A stretch of DNA of 64,000 nucleotides. Source: an uncultured Bacteroidota bacterium (lineage in GTDB: Bacteria; Bacteroidota; Bacteroidia; Bacteroidales; UBA12481). The notes under the pieces are model-generated. The model had not been told where the DNA came from, searched no databases, and saw only the letters and a program-made list of their open reading frames with translations. The position numbers and the translations under genes were made by a program. The DNA is taken from assembly GCA_903851365.1 (NCBI GenBank), contig CAINOB010000038.1, positions 1-64,000 of the forward strand. Reading direction: 5' to 3'. Of the stretch, positions 12,940 to 33,819 are shown one piece after another (within the stretch, counting starts at the first letter, position 1; every line of letters starts with the position of its first letter).

Positions 12940-14520
12940 TTGAATCAAGAAGAAATAAGCAGACGGAGAACATTCGGGATCATCAGCCACCCTGATGCCG
13001 GAAAAACGACCCTTACCGAGAAAATCCTTTTATTCGGTGGTGCCATTAAGACTGCCGGAGCGGTAAAGATGAACAAGATTACCAAAACCGCTACCTCCGA
13101 TTTTATGGAAATCGAGAAGCAGCGTGGTATATCTGTGGCGACCTCGGTTATGGGATTCGAGTACGACGGGTTCAAGATTAATATTCTGGATACTCCCGGG
13201 CACAAAGATTTTGCCGAGGATACTTACCGCACCCTAACGGCCGTTGACAGTGTTATTCTGGTAGTTGACTGCGTAAAAGGTGTGGAGGAGCAAACCCGCA
13301 AGCTGATGGAAGTGTGCAGGATGCGCCACACTCCCGTAATCATTTTTATCAATAAGCTCGACCGTGAAGGGATCGATCCGTATGACCTACTCCATATTAT
13401 TGAGCAGGAATTAAGCATTCATACCCGTCCGCTCACCTGGCCCATTGGCATGGGGGCTGGGTTTAAAGGTGTTTATAATCTGTATACCAAGCACCTGCTT
13501 CTGTTTACCCCAAATATGACCAGGATTTCCGAAGATCAGTTCGCCATTGAAGACCTGGCAAGTCCCGAGCTTGATAGTCGGGTTGGCGCTGTGGCAGCTG
13601 ATCATCTGCGTAAGGATATCGAATTGATTGACAGTGCTTACGAACCTTTCGATAAGGACCTGTACAGCGAGGGGTACCTGGCGCCTGTGTTTTTTGGCAG
13701 CGCCATCAATAACTTTGGTGTTAAAGAGTTGCTCGATACTTTTATTACAATCGCGCCGGAACCGCAGTCGAGATTTACCGATGTCAGGGAGGTTAAGCCC
13801 GAGGAAAACGATTTCAGCGGATTCGTCTTTAAGATCCATGCGAATATCGATCCCAAACATCGCGACAGGATTGCTTTCTGCCGTATTGTTTCCGGAAAAT
13901 TTGAACGTAATAAGTTCTTCTATCATACCCGATTAGATAAGAAGCTGAGGTTTTCGAGTCCGACAAGTTTTATGGCAAACGAAAAGGCTATCGTTGAAGA
14001 AGCTTTTCCAGGGGATGTAGTTGGGCTATATGATACCGGCAATTTCAAGATTGGCGATACTTTAACGGAAGGTGAAAAGCTCACGTTTAAGGGGATTCCA
14101 AGTTTCTCGCCTGAGATTTTCAAGGAGCTGATCAATAAGGATCCTTTCAAGACCAAACAGCTGGAAAAGGGTGTCAGGCAGCTCTCTGATGAAGGTGTTG
14201 CCCAGTTGTTTATCAAACAGCCGGGTAATGTTAAAATCATCGGTACGGTGGGTGAACTGCAGTTTGAAGTGATCCAGTTCAGGTTGCTCCATGAATACAG
14301 CGCCTCCTGTACTTTTCAACCACTCCGGTTGTACAAGGCTTTCTGGTTTACCTCAAAAGACAGGGTGCAACTGAACAAGTTTCTGTCGCTTCAGGCGCAG
14401 CATATCACTTTCGATAAAGACGATCATCCTGTTTTTATGGCTGAAAGTGAATGGCACTTTAAAGTTACCCGCGAGGTTTATCCGGCGCTTGCCTTCCATA
14501 TTACCTCGGAGAATAAGTAA
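12940..14520 (+). CDS. prfC: Peptide chain release factor 3
   Basis: About 526 residues of the translational GTPase that recycles RF1/RF2 from the ribosome. G motifs are clear: SHPDAGKTT (P-loop), DTPGH, and NKLDREG. The [15 protein letters not shown] switch region and the C-terminal RF3 domain also match. No ATG lies between the in-frame stop at 12904 and the P-loop, so the start is non-ATG. TTG at 12940 gives [13 protein letters not shown], the length expected by comparison with relatives. TTG at 12916 is possible but overlaps a promoter-like TTCCTTTG. The gene is divergent from the solute-binding lipoprotein. Confidence 0.93.
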
Positions 14521-27566: not shown

Positions 27567-27770
27567 ATGAAAAAAAACATGGGAACGATTGACAAAGTAA
27601 TCAGGATACTGGTTGCTGTCGTAATGGTAGTACTATTTTTCACTCACGTGATTACCGGTACCCTTGCTGTAATTCTTTTAATCCTTTCAGGAGTATTTGT
27701 GTTGACAAGCTTAATAAGTTTCTGTCCGCTCTATCTGCCTTTTGGGTTGAATACCAAAAAGAAAGTTTAA
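27567..27770 (+). CDS. DUF2892 small membrane protein
   Basis: A 67-residue protein with two transmembrane helices and the family ending SLISFCPLYLPFGLNT. DUF2892 occurs free or fused to rhodanese (as in E. coli YgaP) and is usually tied to sulfur or redox genes. The start could also be the second Met (MGTIDKVIR), which is closer to the usual family start. It lies convergently to the NifX operon, separated by a strong terminator. Confidence 0.85.
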   Translation: MKKNMGTIDKVIRILVAVVMVVLFFTHVITGTLAVILLILSGVFVLTSLISFCPLYLPFGLNTKKKV

Positions 27771-27773
27771 GTA

Positions 27774-27804
27774 AAAGAGGCTGCCTTCATCAGGCAGCCT
27801 CTTT
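27774..27804. terminator. Bidirectional terminator between DUF2892 and the NifX operon
   Basis: A perfect 13-bp stem (AAAGAGGCTGCCT at 27774-27786 and its complement at 27792-27804) with a 5-base loop TCATC. The A-run on one side and T-run on the other let it terminate transcription from both sides. Confidence 0.92.
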
Positions 27805-27817
27805 AATTCTCTAAACA

Positions 27818-28198
27818 CTAGTTGTTACAAACGTGCCCCTCTTCACCATGACCTCCATGATGGTGGCAGGTTTCTCCGCTGTCGGTCAGTTTGCCGGAAA
27901 CGAAATCATTCACGGCATCAACCGCACTGCCGGAACAACCTCTGACCACATCAATTCCCCAGCTGTTCAGTACGTTAATAGCCCCGCCACCGATGCCGCC
28001 AGCCAGCATTAACGAAACTCCCTGTTCTGCCAATACCCCGGCGATATTTGATTTGCAACCGCAACCTTGTTCTGATTTTATAGTCTGTACCTCAACAATT
28101 TCGTTTGATTCAGAAATTGTATACACCCCATAGAATTCGCAATGGCCAAAATGATCATCAATCCGGTTTTCAGCCGTAATTGGAATTGCTATTTTCAT
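27818..28198 (-). CDS. NifX/NafY-type dinitrogenase iron-molybdenum cofactor domain protein
   Basis: A 126-residue protein of the NifX/NifB-C-terminal (Nitro_FeMo-Co) fold, a domain that binds metal-sulfur clusters. The DDHFGHCEFYGVY, GCGCKSNI and LAGGIGGGAINVL segments are typical. The C-terminal tail is loaded with ligands (C111, HHHGGHGEEGH, C124), suggesting metal binding. It is the last gene of an operon with a class V aminotransferase and a second NifX-like gene. No nitrogenase genes are present, so the cargo is probably another metal cluster. Confidence 0.9.
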   Translation of the reverse strand: MKIAIPITAENRIDDHFGHCEFYGVYTISESNEIVEVQTIKSEQGCGCKSNIAGVLAEQGVSLMLAGGIGGGAINVLNSWGIDVVRGCSGSAVDAVNDFVSGKLTDSGETCHHHGGHGEEGHVCNN

Positions 28199-28232
28199 CT
28201 TAGTTTAAATTATTGATTGTTAATTGTATAAT

Positions 28233-29741
28233 TCATCTGTTTAATTGAAACCAATTGGAAATGAATTCATTCCTGACTGGGAATGTACAGTGGTTAAATT
28301 CATTGGTCTGACTATCGTAGCAGTAATCTTTTTGCCAAACCTCAATTTTGTCGGCAATCTGCCAGATCGCTCCTGTTATGAACATCAATTCGTCATTGGT
28401 CATTGTCGGATGCAGCGAAAGCCTGACCCACCCAGGTTTCATGGATAGATCCCCTGAGTCTATTTTATCAGTAATCTCCTTGGATAGTTTGAAGTCGACC
28501 TTTAGCAGGTAATGACCGTAGGTGCCGGCACAGGAGCAACCTCCCCTGACCTGGATCCCGAACCGGTCATTCAGGAGCCTCGTGATCAGGTTATGATGGA
28601 TGTGATCAATGTAAAATGAGAAAACGCCAAGCCTTTCCTTTATCTGATCAGCCAGAATATGCAGATTATTAATTTTTGACAGTTCCCGAAAGGCTATATC
28701 CACAAGTTCATTTTCCCTTTGATGGATTTTTAGTGGATCCATATCCTCCTTCAATCTGATACAAAGTGCCGTTTTTATTCCTTGGAGGAATCCCGGTGTT
28801 CCGCCATCTTCCTTTACTTCAATATCGCTGAAATAGCTGTAACCTCCCCAGCGATTGGTCCACTTAACAGTGCCCCCTCCTGGTGAGTCCGGGGTATTGT
28901 TGTGATAAAGTTTTTTATTAAAGATAAGCACCCCGGCACTGCCCGGACCACCGAGAAATTTATGAGGTGAAAAAAATATGGCATCTAAATCCTGATTCTC
29001 ACCACCCGGATGCATATCTATATTGACATAGGGGGCCGAAGCAGCAAAATCAACAAAACAGTACCCACCATGCTCATGCATGATTTTGGCAAGTTCATAA
29101 TAGGGTGGGTAATACCCGGTAACGTTGGAGCATGCAGAAAATGAGCCAATCAGGAGAGGCCGGTGACTGTATTTCCTGATCTCCCTCCTTAAAGCATCGG
29201 GATTGACTGTCAGATCAGGATTCGGTTCCAGTACCACTACATCCGCGATGGTTTCGAACCATGAAGTGTGATTGGAGTGGTGTTCGGTATGGGTTAAAAA
29301 AACAACCGGACGGATCTCATTATGTTCACTTTTGCACTTGTAAAGTTCCCCCTTTGCATAGGAACAATAATTCTTTGCCTGCTCAGGGATCTTTAGACCC
29401 AGGATTCGTTGAAGCTTTGCAAGCGCAGAAGTCATGCCGGTTCCTGTAAAAATCAACACATCATTTTCGCCGGCATTTACATGTTGCTTTACAATTTTCT
29501 GGGCGTAATGATAGGCCTCAGTCATTGCTCTTCCGGTTGCGGAAGATTCAGAATGAGTATTGCCGACCATGGGCCCGATATCTTCCGATATTCGGTATTC
29601 GATCGGCTTATATAATCTTCCACTGGCTATCCAGTCGGCATAGATCAGTTTTTTCTTTCCGTAAGGGGTAAGGATTTCCGCATCAACACCTACAATATTC
29701 CTGCGATATGAATCGAAATGCTTTTCAAGAGTGGTCATCAA
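28233..29741 (-). CDS. Class V aminotransferase (cysteine desulfurase/selenocysteine lyase-like)
   Basis: A 502-residue PLP enzyme. The PLP lysine is K261 in FFSPHKFLGGPG, preceded by D231 (CFVDFAASAPY). A C402/C404 pair (VRGGCSCAGTYGH) sits where cysteine desulfurases carry the catalytic Cys loop. It could therefore mobilise sulfur or selenium for the NifX-like partners (inference). Family members of about 500 residues are annotated only as aminotransferase class V; true desulfurases are near 400. The gene lies between two NifX-like genes, 8 bases after one and 34 bases before the other. Confidence 0.85.
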   Translation of the reverse strand: MMTTLEKHFDSYRRNIVGVDAEILTPYGKKKLIYADWIASGRLYKPIEYRISEDIGPMVGNTHSESSATGRAMTEAYHYAQKIVKQHVNAGENDVLIFTGTGMTSALAKLQRILGLKIPEQAKNYCSYAKGELYKCKSEHNEIRPVVFLTHTEHHSNHTSWFETIADVVVLEPNPDLTVNPDALRREIRKYSHRPLLIGSFSACSNVTGYYPPYYELAKIMHEHGGYCFVDFAASAPYVNIDMHPGGENQDLDAIFFSPHKFLGGPGSAGVLIFNKKLYHNNTPDSPGGGTVKWTNRWGGYSYFSDIEVKEDGGTPGFLQGIKTALCIRLKEDMDPLKIHQRENELVDIAFRELSKINNLHILADQIKERLGVFSFYIDHIHHNLITRLLNDRFGIQVRGGCSCAGTYGHYLLKVDFKLSKEITDKIDSGDLSMKPGWVRLSLHPTMTNDELMFITGAIWQIADKIEVWQKDYCYDSQTNEFNHCTFPVRNEFISNWFQLNR

Positions 29742-29749
29742 TAGTTAAA

Positions 29750-30094
29750 TTATGGGCAGCAACAATAATTGCTTTCCATAGTTGCCAGGTTCTTCAGATA
29801 AAACATTACAGCATTGATGATATTAGTCTCCCGGGTGTGTACCACTTCATATTCCAACCTCAATAAATCTCTTTCAGTTTCTGGAAGAATTTCTCTGGTT
29901 ATCAAGGTTTGATGGTATAGTGGATCACGGTCGTTGTTTCCCAGCGCTAGCAGGCTGTTGTGATTGCTCCCAACAGGCTCTACTGTATCTTCCAATACCA
30001 CCCCGTTGACCACTTTCAAAAATCGGTAAGATGAAGTGCTCTCAAAATCAGGAGAAATGGACAGGCCATCGTTCGTTGGAATTATTATTTTCAT
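29750..30094 (-). CDS. Diverged NifX-like protein with a Cys-Cys-Cys-Pro tail
   Basis: A 114-residue protein that begins like the NifX family (MKIIIPTNDGLSISPDF) but has lost the HFG-type motif and ends in SNYCCCP (C111, C112, C113). The middle (LITREILPETERDLLRLEYEVVHT) resembles the domain only loosely. It is the first gene of the operon ahead of the aminotransferase and the second NifX-like protein. Function unknown; the cysteine tail could bind a metal or accept sulfur from the aminotransferase. Confidence 0.7.
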   Translation of the reverse strand: MKIIIPTNDGLSISPDFESTSSYRFLKVVNGVVLEDTVEPVGSNHNSLLALGNNDRDPLYHQTLITREILPETERDLLRLEYEVVHTRETNIINAVMFYLKNLATMESNYCCCP

Positions 30095-30123
30095 ATAATT
30101 ATCAGATAATCAGATATATTAGA

Positions 30124-30131
30124 CAAAGGTA
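30124..30131 (-). promoter_or_regulatory. TACCTTTG -7 element of the NifX-aminotransferase operon
   Basis: An exact TAnnTTTG match on the minus strand, 29 bases before the operon's first ATG; start near 30118. No clear TTTG follows, so the promoter may need an activator. The palindrome at 30185-30202 is centred about 75 bases upstream of that start. Confidence 0.55.
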
Positions 30132-30183
30132 GCTATCGTAATCTATTCTCTTCTCTTAACAGATGTGATATTTGACCTAATTA

Positions 30184-30216
30184 TTTGTGATAAATATCAC
30201 AAAATATATAATTTTG
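30184..30216 (+). promoter_or_regulatory. Promoter of the second Crp/Fnr gene: TTTG-N21-TAATTTTG
   Basis: TTTG at 30184-30187 and TAATTTTG at 30209-30216 have the exact Bacteroidota spacing. The -33 TTTG is part of the palindrome at 30185-30202, so binding there should block the promoter. Confidence 0.7.
30185..30202. promoter_or_regulatory. Perfect HcpR/CRP-type palindrome TTGTGATA-AA-TATCACAA
   Basis: Eight-base arms around a two-base centre contain TGTGA-N6-TCACA, the classic CRP core, and match the TTGTGA-N6-TCACAA signal known for HcpR, a Crp/Fnr regulator of the nitrosative-stress gene hcp. It lies between the divergent NifX operon and a Crp/Fnr gene, the natural place for autoregulation and shared control. 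Confidence 0.75.
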
Positions 30217-30234
30217 AAATTAAATAGTGGATAA

Positions 30235-30936
30235 ATGCATTCATTAGAGGATGTTAGCAATATCAACTGTCAGGACTGTTCGGATAAGTCCTGTGCTACC
30301 GCTGTCCTGGATAAAAGCGAGATGGACACTATATTCAAGAACCGTTTCATCAATAAAATCAAAAAAGGAACAAATATCCTTAATGAAGGTTCGCCAACAT
30401 CTCATATCATTTACCTCCGATCAGGACTAATCAAAGAATACATGCGAAGGCCGGACCAACAGGAGCAGATCATTCAGATCATCCTGCCTCACTCTTATCT
30501 CGGGCTGACTTCTATATTTGGTGACAAAGTGAATCACTATTCCTATAGTGCCCTTACCGATCTCCGGGTATGTTATATCGAGATTGATGTATTTACCGGG
30601 CTTATTAAAAACAACGGTAATTTCGCGTATGAGATTCTGACGTCGGTGGGAAGAGACAGCCTTCGTAGTTTCCATCGGTTTGTCAATCAAAGTAATAAGA
30701 AAGTTTATGGGCGGGTTGCTGATATCCTGATCTACTTTTCGAAGGTGATTTTTGCCAACGATCGTTTTCAGATTCCATTAACCAGATGCGAGATAGCGGA
30801 TATGGTTGGTACTTCAAGGGAAAGTACGGGCAGGGTACTGGCGAAATTTAAGGGAGAGGGAATCATCGAAATACATGGGAAGAATATCCAGGTAAAAGAT
30901 ATGCTTAAGTTAGAGCAGATCAGTAAGTACGGTTGA
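30235..30936 (+). CDS. Crp/Fnr-family regulator (copy 2), HcpR-like
   Basis: A 233-residue regulator with N-terminal cysteines C12, C15, C20 and a fourth at C113, close to the four Fe-S ligands of E. coli Fnr (20, 23, 29, 122). The DNA-binding helix-turn-helix is near the C-terminus (LTRCEIADMVGTSRESTGRVLAKFKGEGII). A palindrome of the HcpR type sits in its own promoter, so it is probably an autoregulated oxygen or NO sensor controlling the divergent NifX operon (inference). Confidence 0.88.
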   Translation: MHSLEDVSNINCQDCSDKSCATAVLDKSEMDTIFKNRFINKIKKGTNILNEGSPTSHIIYLRSGLIKEYMRRPDQQEQIIQIILPHSYLGLTSIFGDKVNHYSYSALTDLRVCYIEIDVFTGLIKNNGNFAYEILTSVGRDSLRSFHRFVNQSNKKVYGRVADILIYFSKVIFANDRFQIPLTRCEIADMVGTSRESTGRVLAKFKGEGIIEIHGKNIQVKDMLKLEQISKYG

Positions 30937-31072: not shown

Positions 31073-32545
31073 ATGGTGCGACATATATTTCTCTTTTCCC
31101 GGGCGGCTGCAATCGGCCTGCTGTTTATGATTTTTTCACAGGCATTGCAGAGCCAAACACGCTTTGAGCCCAACTGGCAATCCATCGATAGCCGACCAAC
31201 TCCCCAGTGGTTCTCGGATGCAAAATTCGGCATTTTCGTATGCTGGGGACTCTATTCCGTTCCTGCCTGGAGTCCGAAAGGCCAGTATTCTGAATGGTAT
31301 ATGTACTGGATGAAACAGAAGGCTTTCGAGGGAAAGGTGTACGATTTTCATCTGAATAAATATGGACCCGGGTTCGAGTTTAAAGACTTTGCTCCCCTTT
31401 TTAAGGCTGAGCTGTGGAATCCCGACGATTGGGCGGATCTTTTTCAGCGTGCCGGCGCTAAATATATCGTCTTTACCACCAAACATCACTCTGGATATAC
31501 GTTGTGGCCGAGTGCAGAGGCTGAGCAAACCTGGGGCGAAAATTACAACCCGGTCAAGGTGGGCCCGAAACGCGACCTGGTTGGAGATTTGACTACTGCA
31601 GTCAAGAAAAAAGGACTGAAAATGGGGCTTTACTATTCTCTTTTTGAGTGGTATCACCCATGGTATTTGAATGATTTCCATGATTTTGTGTCTAAGCATT
31701 TTCATCCGCAGTTCAAAGATCTGGTAACAAGATATGAGCCCGATATTTTATGGGCCGATGGTGAATGGGAGCAAACTTCCGAAGCCTGGCGAACTCCGGA
31801 ATTGCTGGCCTGGCTGTTTAATGAAAGCAAGAATAAGGAGGTGGTGATTAACGATCGCTGGGGCAATGATTCAAGGCATAAGCATGGCGGATTTTATACC
31901 ACTGAATATGGTTCAGGCATGGATGACGACAAACACCCATGGGAAGAAAACCGCGGCATGGGTTATTCGTATGGATACAACAGGGCCGAAAACCTCGAAG
32001 ATTACCGGAGTTCACAGGAACTTATTTTGATGCTAGCGGATATCGTATCACGCGGTGGTAATTTATGCCTCGATATTGGTCCGGCAGCCGACGGGCAGAT
32101 CCCGGTGATCATGCAGGAAAGGCTGGTCCAGATTGGAAACTGGCTCAAGGTTAACGGGGATGCAATCTATGGAACCCGGATGTGTTCGACCCCTGTGCAA
32201 TGGTCGGCAGGACAAAAGCCGGAGATCAAGCGAGGTGAATTTATGGTGCCTTATAATATTCTCAAGGAAACTGTCCGGCCCGATTCCGGTCAGGCGGTCA
32301 AGGAAATATTCTTCACTAAAAAAGGAAATTCTATTTATGCCATAGTTCCCAAATGGCCCGGCAAGAATCTTATAATCAACGATCTCGCCGTCACCCGTCA
32401 CCCGTCACTCGTCACTTTCTTGCAAACTGGCCAAAAGCTCAAATTTCACTATCAAGGTGGGGAATTAAGCATAGAAATGCCTTCCTTCGATCCCAACGGG
32501 AACTGGGCCACAGAAGCGTTTGCATTTAAAATTGAAAATAACTAG
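31073..32545 (+). CDS. GH29 alpha-L-fucosidase
   Basis: A 490-residue secreted fucosidase: signal peptide to about residue 27, then the GH29 barrel with WFSDAKFGIFVCWGLYSVPAW, TTKHHSGY (residues 136-142) and the nucleophile Asp229 in PDILWADGEWE, followed by a beta-sandwich domain. It hydrolyses terminal alpha-L-fucose in the periplasm or at the surface. A heptamer array is embedded in the coding region near the C-terminal domain (residues about 440-450). Eight bases later comes an MFS carrier gene, presumably for the released sugar or a related compound. Confidence 0.93.
   Translation: MVRHIFLFSRAAAIGLLFMIFSQALQSQTRFEPNWQSIDSRPTPQWFSDAKFGIFVCWGLYSVPAWSPKGQYSEWYMYWMKQKAFEGKVYDFHLNKYGPGFEFKDFAPLFKAELWNPDDWADLFQRAGAKYIVFTTKHHSGYTLWPSAEAEQTWGENYNPVKVGPKRDLVGDLTTAVKKKGLKMGLYYSLFEWYHPWYLNDFHDFVSKHFHPQFKDLVTRYEPDILWADGEWEQTSEAWRTPELLAWLFNESKNKEVVINDRWGNDSRHKHGGFYTTEYGSGMDDDKHPWEENRGMGYSYGYNRAENLEDYRSSQELILMLADIVSRGGNLCLDIGPAADGQIPVIMQERLVQIGNWLKVNGDAIYGTRMCSTPVQWSAGQKPEIKRGEFMVPYNILKETVRPDSGQAVKEIFFTKKGNSIYAIVPKWPGKNLIINDLAVTRHPSLVTFLQTGQKLKFHYQGGELSIEMPSFDPNGNWATEAFAFKIENN
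32390..32417 (+). repeat. GTCACCC heptamer array inside the fucosidase gene
   Basis: GTCACCC, GTCACCC, GTCACTC and GTCACTT encode part of VTRHPSLVT. The same units are found at 39905-39953 and 45510-45537. Confidence 0.9.
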
Positions 32546-32553
32546 TCGAAGTT

Positions 32554-33819
32554 ATGGAACAAAAAAAGACTTATCCGGTATTCGCATATAGGTGGGTGAT
32601 TTTGGCGGTATACATGTTTTTATCCATTGTGATACAGATACAATGGCTGGCACACGCTTCGGTTGCCAGGCCGGCTGCAGTTTTTTATGCCGGTCAGTTT
32701 AGTCCTGATGGCTTGTTCAATATTGATTTCCTTGCGTTGTTATACATGCTCGTTTACATTATTGTGAGTATACCTGCATCGTATATCATCGATACCCATG
32801 GCATTAAAATCGGTTTGGGAATTGGTGCAGCCATAACCGTGGTATGCGGTCTGCTAAAAGGCTTTATGGCTGAAAATTATATAGGAATTCTGGTGGCACA
32901 GGTTGGGTTGGCTATTGCTCAGCCATTCATATTGAACGCGGTAACCGCAATAACGGTCAGGTGGTTTCCGCTGAGAGAGCGTGGAATGGCGGCCGGTATG
33001 GCTGCACTTGCTCAGTATCTGGGAATCATAATTGCCATGCTCGTAACACCATTAATGATTGGGATCAATCCGGATAAACCTGATTATGGCAGTGGATTTG
33101 GTCATATGCTGATGATCTATGGCGTAATAACCGCGGTGGCTGGCGTATTATCGCTGATCCTTATCAAGGAAACTCCACCGGAACCTCCTGGAGATGAGCT
33201 GGTGGAGCGTATGAGTTTCGGCAAAGGGCTTAAGCATATTCTCGGTTTACGGGATATGCGTATTATCCTGATAATTTTCTTGATCGGCCTGGGTATTTTT
33301 AATGCGGTGAGCAGCATGACGGATGCTATCGCTGCGCACATGGGGGTTAAAGATTCCGAAGGCCTCATCGGCGGAATCATGCTGATTGGAGGAATTATTG
33401 GGGCAGTAATCATACCCTGGCTTTCAGATGTTTATAAAAAGAGAAAATTTTTCCTGGTAGTATGCATGGTCGGCATGGTCCCGGGAATCGTTGGATTATC
33501 GCTGGCTGATCACCTGGCTTCGACCCCTGGTGCCATTTACGGAATAACCCTTGCCGGCTCATTTATCCTTGGATTTTTCGTGATGAGTGCCGGTCCAATT
33601 GGGTTCCAGTATGCTGCTGAAGTAAGCTATCCGGCTCCGGAATCTACCTCGCAGGGCCTTTTACTCCTGATCGGGCAAGTTACCGGGATGATATTTGTTG
33701 CCGGGATGAGCATACATCAGAATCATTTTCTGGGCGTTTTTATGACCCTCTTTGTGGTGCTTACGGTTGTGACGATGATATTGGGCACCACATTGCGTGA
33801 ATCGCCGCACTTTCGCTAA
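32554..33819 (+). CDS. MFS transporter, FLVCR-like
   Basis: A 421-residue major facilitator with 12 predicted helices. The conserved loops include WFPLRERGMAAGMAALAQYLG between helices 4 and 5 and SDVYKKRKFF after helix 7. Overall it resembles the FLVCR/SLC49-type subgroup more than sugar porters, but the substrate is unknown. It follows the fucosidase by eight bases, so cotranscription is likely. Confidence 0.85.
   Translation: MEQKKTYPVFAYRWVILAVYMFLSIVIQIQWLAHASVARPAAVFYAGQFSPDGLFNIDFLALLYMLVYIIVSIPASYIIDTHGIKIGLGIGAAITVVCGLLKGFMAENYIGILVAQVGLAIAQPFILNAVTAITVRWFPLRERGMAAGMAALAQYLGIIIAMLVTPLMIGINPDKPDYGSGFGHMLMIYGVITAVAGVLSLILIKETPPEPPGDELVERMSFGKGLKHILGLRDMRIILIIFLIGLGIFNAVSSMTDAIAAHMGVKDSEGLIGGIMLIGGIIGAVIIPWLSDVYKKRKFFLVVCMVGMVPGIVGLSLADHLASTPGAIYGITLAGSFILGFFVMSAGPIGFQYAAEVSYPAPESTSQGLLLLIGQVTGMIFVAGMSIHQNHFLGVFMTLFVVLTVVTMILGTTLRESPHFR

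Follow-up and report, generated by a model that had tools for sequence, protein, structure and literature searches.

Background

In cysteine desulfurases of the SufS kind a lysine holds the pyridoxal 5'-phosphate (PLP), a cysteine carries the persulfide and arginines bind the substrate, and the glutamine of their DGAQ motif contacts PLP. Besides SufS and CsdA with SufE, SufU and CsdE, the described systems closest to the locus analysed here are the PF02579 proteins (NifX, NafY, the NifB domain and ORP), the TusA-DsrE-Hdr (sHdr) and QmoABC systems, the TIGR01977 (EF2568-type) enzymes with SelD, and the regulators FNR and CRP, the last of which reads TGTGA. Our locus lies in a stretch of 64,000 nucleotides (hereafter the window; positions 1 to 64,000 of contig CAINOB010000038.1, assembly GCA_903851365.1) from an uncultured bacterium of the order Bacteroidales, and comprises a small protein with a predicted NifX fold and a Cys-Cys-Cys-Pro tail (NifXccp), a SufS-like class V PLP enzyme (AT500) and a second NifX-type protein (NifXb), next to the divergent gene of an FNR-like regulator (CRPb) and a palindromic operator. 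Very probably this cassette belongs to a sulfur-related regulon. Its parts are of known kinds and, as far as we have searched, what is new is the way they are combined, along with the operator and the Cys3-tailed NifX subfamily; a literature search, with most subscription papers outside its scope, found no description of the cassette, the subfamily or the operator. To our knowledge neither NifXccp nor AT500 is a component of the TusA-DsrE-Hdr or QmoABC systems.

A constant core of regulator, operator and NifX-fold protein

Relatives of NifXccp were searched across genome contigs with the single window protein, which found none, and then with a profile of four sequences, which gave full-length matches in 9 of the 393 genomes of the window's order (any match at an expect value, E, of 0.01 was obtained in 65 of the 393, mostly to other NifX-like proteins) and found 13 named loci, all of them metagenome-assembled genomes titled Bacteroidales, Bacteroidia or Bacteroidetes and several of them from Lake Pavin or a fen, judging by their names. 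Leaving out one of the 13 that lacks the tail (L083) and counting once the contigs that appear under two handles (L078 is G373:C47 and L081 is G404:C37) gave a total of 20 distinct loci. When a profile of these 20 sequences was run against 395 genomes of the phylum (E 1e-6), it gave no tail-bearing match beyond the window's own genome (G000), the other matches ending before the last two positions.

What is constant among the 20 loci is the unit made of CRPb, the operator and NifXccp, while the third gene and the enzyme vary. CRPb is the divergent neighbour of NifXccp in 19 loci and the operator is found in all 20; the remaining locus (L076, 6001-8400) has the operator, NifXccp and AT500, and CRPb was not detected there by tblastn. 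Downstream of NifXccp every locus has a PLP enzyme with relatives among those that mobilise sulfur: AT500 in 16, a TIGR01977 relative (AT390) in three and a Cys/Met lyase-like protein in one (L086, where a NifXb-like gene also follows NifXccp). AT390 comes directly after NifXccp in L089 and after HmcE/HmcF-type genes in L087 and L088; the copies of L049 (the same locus as L089), L078 and L079 exceed the TIGR01977 cut-off, and those of L087 and L088 are assigned by their similarity to the copy of L078.

No Pfam family matches NifXccp, PF02579 included, and the NCBIfam libraries do not recognise it either, so that its NifX-like nature, claimed by an earlier model-made reading of the letters alone (the sequence-only reading), is borne out by its predicted structure and not by the libraries. 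The model (predicted local distance difference test score, pLDDT, 84.5) finds its best solved matches in TM1816 (1o13, E 1.8e-5) and MJ0327 and also matches NifX (9ian_F, E 6.7e-4) and NafY (1p90, E 3.5e-3), and the predicted fold is that of NifX and the NifB domain. Across the 20 loci, identity to the window protein is 21-57% over the whole sequence, and the tail is exactly CCCP in 18 (SCSP in L082, LCCP in L047), its cysteine codons varying synonymously among loci. Because the set was built by demanding a tail-like ending after the profile search, this conservation is partly the product of selection of the sequences, and the link with CRPb was used as an independent test: among 61 NifX-like rows scored, 19 had both the tail and a CRPb neighbour, 41 had neither and one had the tail only, with one locus counted twice among the 19 (L039/L078) and another among the 41 (L041/L051). 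Four further rows (L040, L042, L081, L105) gave no usable open reading frame, although L040 and L081, which are one contig (G404), do have CRPb. Selenocysteine read-through of the NifXccp stop, raised by L079 where the stop is TGA and the enzyme is in frame, was ruled out, as TAA, TAG and TGA are mixed over the 20 loci. Another NifX-like subfamily of the order (L052, L053, L054, L057, L058, L083) has a CC-x-H ending, a His-rich insert and no CRPb neighbour.

The operator and its probable regulon

A dyad was searched upstream of NifXccp as far as CRPb (for L046 and L076, in which the start of CRPb was not found, 260 bases were used), and TGTGA-N6-TCACA with at most one mismatch between the half-sites was present in 19 of the 20 upstream regions. 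Shuffled sets, 20 per setting, gave at most 6 of 20 (average 4.85) with the spacing fixed at that value and 8 with the spacing left free. Written as TGTGAT-N4-ATCACA with up to two mismatches, the site is found in all 20 loci. When the 20 sites, that of the window among them, were turned into a weight matrix, the window site (30183-30204) scored 30.1, the next best site in the 64 kb 12.1 and five shuffles up to 16.8. At the level of whole genomes, exact TGTGAY-N4-RTCACA occurs four times in the 5.2 Mb of the window's genome (reversed-pattern control, 0) and ten times in the eight other cassette genomes (control, 5). Seven of these 14 exact sites are at the cassette, four lie directly before DsrE-TusA-FlpD genes (in G000, G502, G648 and G607) and three are elsewhere, each within a mechanically called frame. 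This distribution of the operator is the strongest evidence that the cassette and the sulfur genes form one regulon, a conclusion that we consider well supported. The fourth exact operator of the window's genome (L115:1501-1516; G000:C59:30720) is close to the 5' end of a large frame, which forms a divergent pair with another.

CRPb would be the protein that binds this site. In an alignment of 24 Crp/Fnr proteins (19 CRPb and five of a related type, CRPc), Cys12, Cys15, Cys20 and Cys113 are present in all 19 CRPb, and all five CRPc-type proteins have Lys or Ala at the position of Cys20. We take the cysteine spacing of CRPb (C-x2-C-x4-C and a fourth Cys) to resemble the placement of the Fe-S ligands of FNR, and its recognition helix (R-E-x3-R) to be like that of CRP; the four cysteines make the redox control suggested by the sequence-only reading plausible. 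As its score of 74.5 bits is far under the FNR subfamily cut-off of 228, CRPb is called FNR-like here and is not a member of that subfamily by the score test. CRPc adjoins DsrE genes in L034/L035, L071, L072 and L089, hence CRPc rather than CRPb could use the site at such genes.

Sulfur-related neighbours and genome-level markers

The stretches compared around the cassettes were 5 to 20 kb long. Relatives of DsrE, TusA or FlpD (E 1e-20) were found in 9 of the 20 (the copy on contig C7 of the window's genome, described below, L071, L072, L074, L077, L078, L084, L085 and L089), and adding relatives of HdrA, HmcE/F and SQR brings the number to 15 (L073, L075, L076, L079, L087 and L088), the HmcE- and HmcF-type names resting on matches under the cut-off. 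The genes NifXccp, AT500, HmcE, HmcF, AT390, DsrE, TusA, FlpD, HdrA and HdrA follow one another in a single run in L084. SQR relatives were seen in L073, L075, L076 and L085, and the SQR of L079 passes the model of the type III selenoprotein subtype; L072 has a PhsA-like molybdoenzyme whose score is under the PhsA cut-off. The sequence-only reading had proposed a metal/sulfur system made of the three-gene set, and of this proposal the sulfur-related character stands, through the conserved neighbours, and the trio as a unit does not.

None of the nine cassette genomes, that of the window included, has nifH over the curated cut-off (weak matches under it occur in all nine) or dsrA. A role in nitrogen fixation and the Dsr pathway are thereby ruled out, in agreement with the lack of nitrogenase genes already remarked on for the window, and the cassette looks like a sulfur-handling module rather than a nitrogen-fixation remnant. 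SelD is over its cut-off in 9 of the 9 cassette genomes and in 163 of the 393 genomes of the order, an enrichment with a probability of about 3e-4, calculated by hand from the counts with no correction for kinship, the genomes falling in seven families.

The enzyme AT500

AT500 is nearest to SufS both by sequence (alignment to chain 8d8s) and by fold, SufS structures being its top solved matches; since its model is of moderate quality (pLDDT 69.4), these matches served only to assign the family and not to judge geometry. In an alignment of 50 rows above 300 bits, 45 of them not contained in one another and three weaker class V matches having been left out, Lys261, His154, His155, Asp231, Arg399, Arg440 and Cys404 are kept throughout and the second cysteine, Cys402, is invariant; Lys261 and Cys404 occupy in all 50 rows the positions of the PLP lysine and the persulfide cysteine of SufS. 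Judging from these residues, AT500 is probably a cysteine desulfurase or a C-S lyase. The sulfur-mobilising enzyme foreseen by the sequence-only reading, with its Cys402 and Cys404 correctly described, is thus desulfurase-like in its conserved residues, and it is its constancy in the cassette that fails (16, 3 and 1 of the 20 loci for the three enzymes).

AT500 usually stands alone, mostly in flanks without a NifX gene. It was found in 172 of 364 genomes of the order at 1e-100, to be compared with 9 of 393 for NifXccp, so that the gene-neighbourhood check on the co-conservation of the trio went against it and the three-gene set is ruled out as a conserved unit. In the phylum, 102 of 296 genomes have it at 1e-30, some relatives of about 30% identity included, and no NifXccp was found beside it in the 29 loci opened outside the order with 1.5 kb flanks (two GC-rich ones, L011 and L022, are masked by spurious frames). 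Its neighbours of note are NifXb and a DsrE-like gene (L132), DUF2892 (L119) and cysteine synthase (L145). The AT500 copies of the cassettes are split between two clades that the tree supports (97/98 and 100/100) and keeps apart, so that at least two changes are forced; AT500 may have been recruited twice, replaced once, or its link with the cassette lost between. A plasmid origin found no support, the plasmid relatives being all less than 60% identical and the three of the 207 that were opened having unrelated neighbours.

A trpE-like frame adjoins AT500, as seen by eye, in 8 of the 29 loci outside the order (L007, L010, L014, L016, L018, L021, L025, L032). Cysteine synthase-like genes are repeatedly near AT500 (L036:4884-7555, L025, L073, L075, L076, L079, L145), the L073 copy scoring just under the cysK cut-offs and those of L025 and L036 being called by eye; a stand-alone third AT500 copy in the window's genome is among these cases.

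The window locus and its second copy

The gene set and positions given by the sequence-only reading, with Crp/Fnr genes on both sides and a convergent DUF2892 gene, agree with Pfam (Table 1). On the minus strand the order is NifXccp, AT500, NifXb, with intergenic gaps of 8 and 34 bases that make a single transcript likely. AT500 has 502 residues from a TTG start and 501 from the ATG one codon in. NifXb belongs to PF02579 (71.2 bits, cut-off 26.3), its best relatives of solved structure by sequence being 1t3v and 1o13, with the ORP 2wfb at E 0.0023. The N-terminus of CRPa, inspected by eye, is without the C-x2-C-x4-C set of CRPb. Downstream of CRPb (31073-33819) there are an alpha-L-fucosidase and an MFS transporter, apparently an unrelated pair for sugar use.

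Table 1. Features of the cassette locus in the window
Feature	Position	Strand	Basis or remark
CRPa, Crp/Fnr-family regulator, 231 residues	26727..27422	-	Pfam cNMP_binding and HTH_Crp_2
YgaP-like transmembrane (DUF2892) protein, convergent to operon	27567..27770	+	PF11127, E 1.9e-20
NifXb, NifX/ORP-type protein of 126 residues, Cys/His-rich tail	27818..28198	-	PF02579, E 9.1e-20
AT500, SufS-like class V PLP enzyme	28233..29741	-	PF00266, E 1.7e-39
NifXccp, NifX-fold protein of 114 residues, C-terminal ESNYCCCP tail, first gene of operon	29750..30094	-	predicted fold
Operator palindrome TGTGATAAATATCACA	30186..30201		33 bp before CRPb ATG, 91 bp before NifXccp ATG
CRPb, FNR-like Crp/Fnr regulator, Cys12/Cys15/Cys20/Cys113, CRP-like recognition helix SRES..R	30235..30936	+	Pfam Crp domains

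Contig C7 of the same genome has a larger paralogous version of the locus (G000:C7:10148-38913; L034, L035), in which the cassette is joined to two Hdr-like clusters, thioredoxin-like genes, OsmC, DUF1847 and Cys/Met lyase genes. Its order begins with CRPa, thioredoxin-like genes, an IS1380-like transposase (these two kinds assigned by eye), DUF2892, OsmC, a methyltransferase, AT500, NifXccp, CRPb and another Crp/Fnr gene, and continues with a DsrE-like gene, FlpD, two flavo-iron-sulfur proteins, which we read as HdrA-type, an iron-sulfur membrane protein, read as HdrC/QmoC-type, NifXb, DUF1847 and Cys/Met lyase; farther on, domain scans found TusA, DsrE, FlpD and Hdr-type genes a second time. 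AT500 is 89% identical between the two copies and NifXccp 57%. By blastn the window genes are 76-91% identical in DNA to their C7 counterparts (CRPa, G000:C7:10148-10843, 91%; NifXb 86%; DUF2892 78%) and keep the same order and orientation, only NifXb having a different place in the order. This suggests that the window locus is a slimmed-down duplicate and not a recent one. A transposase-like frame of the C7 locus is at 13101-14453, and a third PF02579 protein of the genome (L003, G000:C7:30331-30597) lies between the two Hdr-like clusters.

A possible sulfur relay and its alternatives

Taken as a whole, the data are best explained, as we tentatively hold, by a regulated sulfur-trafficking cassette of Bacteroidales of which the window has the slimmed-down second copy. 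CRPb would bind TGTGAT-N4-ATCACA in the shared divergent promoter and control both the NifXccp-AT500(-NifXb) operon and a DsrE-TusA-FlpD-Hdr operon at another place in the genome; AT500 would remove sulfur from cysteine, or from a thiol amino acid like it, and hold it as a persulfide on Cys404, Cys402 lying next to it, as its conserved residues suggest; and the tail of NifXccp would accept this sulfur and hand it on to DsrE/TusA and Hdr-like electron-transfer enzymes. A constant regulator, operator and NifXccp with a changing PLP enzyme akin to those that release sulfur from amino acids is the pattern expected of a shared sulfur acceptor, and the operator common to the cassette and the DsrE-TusA-FlpD genes points to TusA/DsrE/Hdr as the next step. 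This specific route from AT500 through the NifXccp tail to TusA/DsrE/Hdr is a possibility that we advance with some reserve, and the broadest form of the proposal, a Cys3-Pro-armed NifX-fold protein carrying sulfane sulfur (or selenium) from at least three non-orthologous PLP donors to the TusA-DsrE-Hdr route in a regulon switched by an FNR-like protein, is doubtful.

Several observations weigh against the sulfur relay. Relatives of the sulfur genes (E 1e-20) are absent from the stretches of 5 of the 20 loci (the window, L080, L081, L082 and L086), two of which are contigs shorter than 6 kb. The best NCBIfam model for AT500, sufS (TIGR01979), gives 121.2 bits against a cut-off of 475.1, and position 234, where the DGAQ motif has its Gln, is Ala in 40, Cys in 9 and Met in 1 of the 50 rows. 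To the commonness of AT500 in the order must be added that none of the 29 best AT500 loci of the order outside G000 has NifXccp within 1.5 kb, and the two changes forced by the clades could equally be a gain and a loss. Exact operators occur in neither of two of the nine genomes (G494 and G518), whose cassettes carry one and two mismatches. Finally, the tail was in part selected for, as explained above, and sulfur binding by it is putative.

Selenium supply and a sensor role are the serious alternatives to a sulfur carrier. NifXccp could be a sensor or co-regulator for CRPb, reading the sulfur status through a Cys3 tail charged by whichever enzyme is at hand, and CRPb, with which it has a promoter region and operator in common, does accompany it more regularly (in 19 of 20 loci) than any one of the enzymes (the commonest in 16 of 20); nevertheless, divergent pairs of regulator and target are commonplace where the two proteins do not interact, a plausible Fe-S sensor site is already present in CRPb itself and L076 has no detectable CRPb beside its NifXccp, AT500 and operator, and we consider this role unlikely. 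If the PLP enzymes were instead selenocysteine lyases, NifXccp would carry selenium to SelD for selenoproteins. The enrichment of SelD, the SQR near L079 and the membership of AT390 in TIGR01977, whose EF_2568 is probably a selenocysteine lyase according to PMC2276186, speak for selenium. This reading is made improbable by the position of selD on contigs other than the cassette's in all nine genomes, the operator marking DsrE-TusA-FlpD genes instead, by four genomes of the window's own genus that have SelD without NifXccp, and by the mixed stop codons that leave no room for read-through; SelD, moreover, may merely mark anaerobes with selenoproteins.

It is also quite unlikely that AT500, as a class V enzyme, acts on some other substrate and stands beside NifXccp opportunistically. 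The change of Gln to Ala next to PLP, a length exceeding that of SufS and a wide distribution beside unrelated genes would suit such an enzyme, yet Cys404 and the substrate-binding arginines are invariant, the cassette enzymes come from two family lineages and three loci have instead a relative of a recognised desulfurase family. We regard as the least probable of these readings that of the earlier note, in which the two NifX-type proteins build or hold an ORP- or NifX-like metal-sulfur cluster whose sulfur the enzyme supplies. In its favour, the NifX/ORP fold is common to the two proteins (NifXb by sequence, NifXccp by its model), their tails are Cys-rich, and NifXb adjoins AT500 in the window and in L132, a locus that shows no NifXccp; but a cluster resting on the pair finds no support, NifXb being within the compared stretch in only 5 of the 20 cassette loci, and nifH is missing over the cut-off, Mrp/ApbC and NifB not having been searched separately.

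Should the sulfur relay be true, Bacteroidales of anoxic habitats would have a regulated sulfur-relay module that family-based annotation labels as 'aminotransferase class V' and 'dinitrogenase iron-molybdenum cofactor' proteins, and NifX-type proteins would have a function in organisms without nitrogenase, the NifX fold serving as a sulfur shuttle outside cofactor assembly. The operator would be a DNA site for finding further members of the regulon, and transfer from desulfurase to Cys3 tail to TusA/DsrE would offer a concrete assay.

Comparison with known systems

AT500 resembles SufS and CsdA in keeping the positions of the PLP lysine, histidine, arginine and persulfide cysteine and in having the gene of a small partner next to it; it differs from them by its score under the SufS cut-off, the loss of the Gln next to PLP, its CxC loop and some 90 additional residues, and its partner differs from SufE and SufU in having the NifX fold. 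From NifX, NafY, NifB-domain and ORP proteins, which NifXccp resembles in its predicted fold and NifXb in sequence, NifXccp is set apart by the CCCP tail and the lack of a PF02579 match, in genomes without nifH over the cut-off. The three cassettes with a TIGR01977 relative instead of AT500, and the SelD of all nine genomes, recall the TIGR01977 enzymes with SelD, from which the cassettes differ in that selD is on other contigs. CRPb shares with FNR the C-x2-C-x4-C set and the fourth cysteine, whereas its score keeps it apart from that subfamily, and shares with CRP the R-E-x3-R helix, facing TGTGA half-sites at the operator. With the TusA-DsrE-Hdr (sHdr) and QmoABC systems, lastly, the likeness is one of company, such genes adjoining many cassettes and having the operator in common with them in four genomes, whereas the dsrA of the Dsr pathway is absent from the nine cassette genomes.

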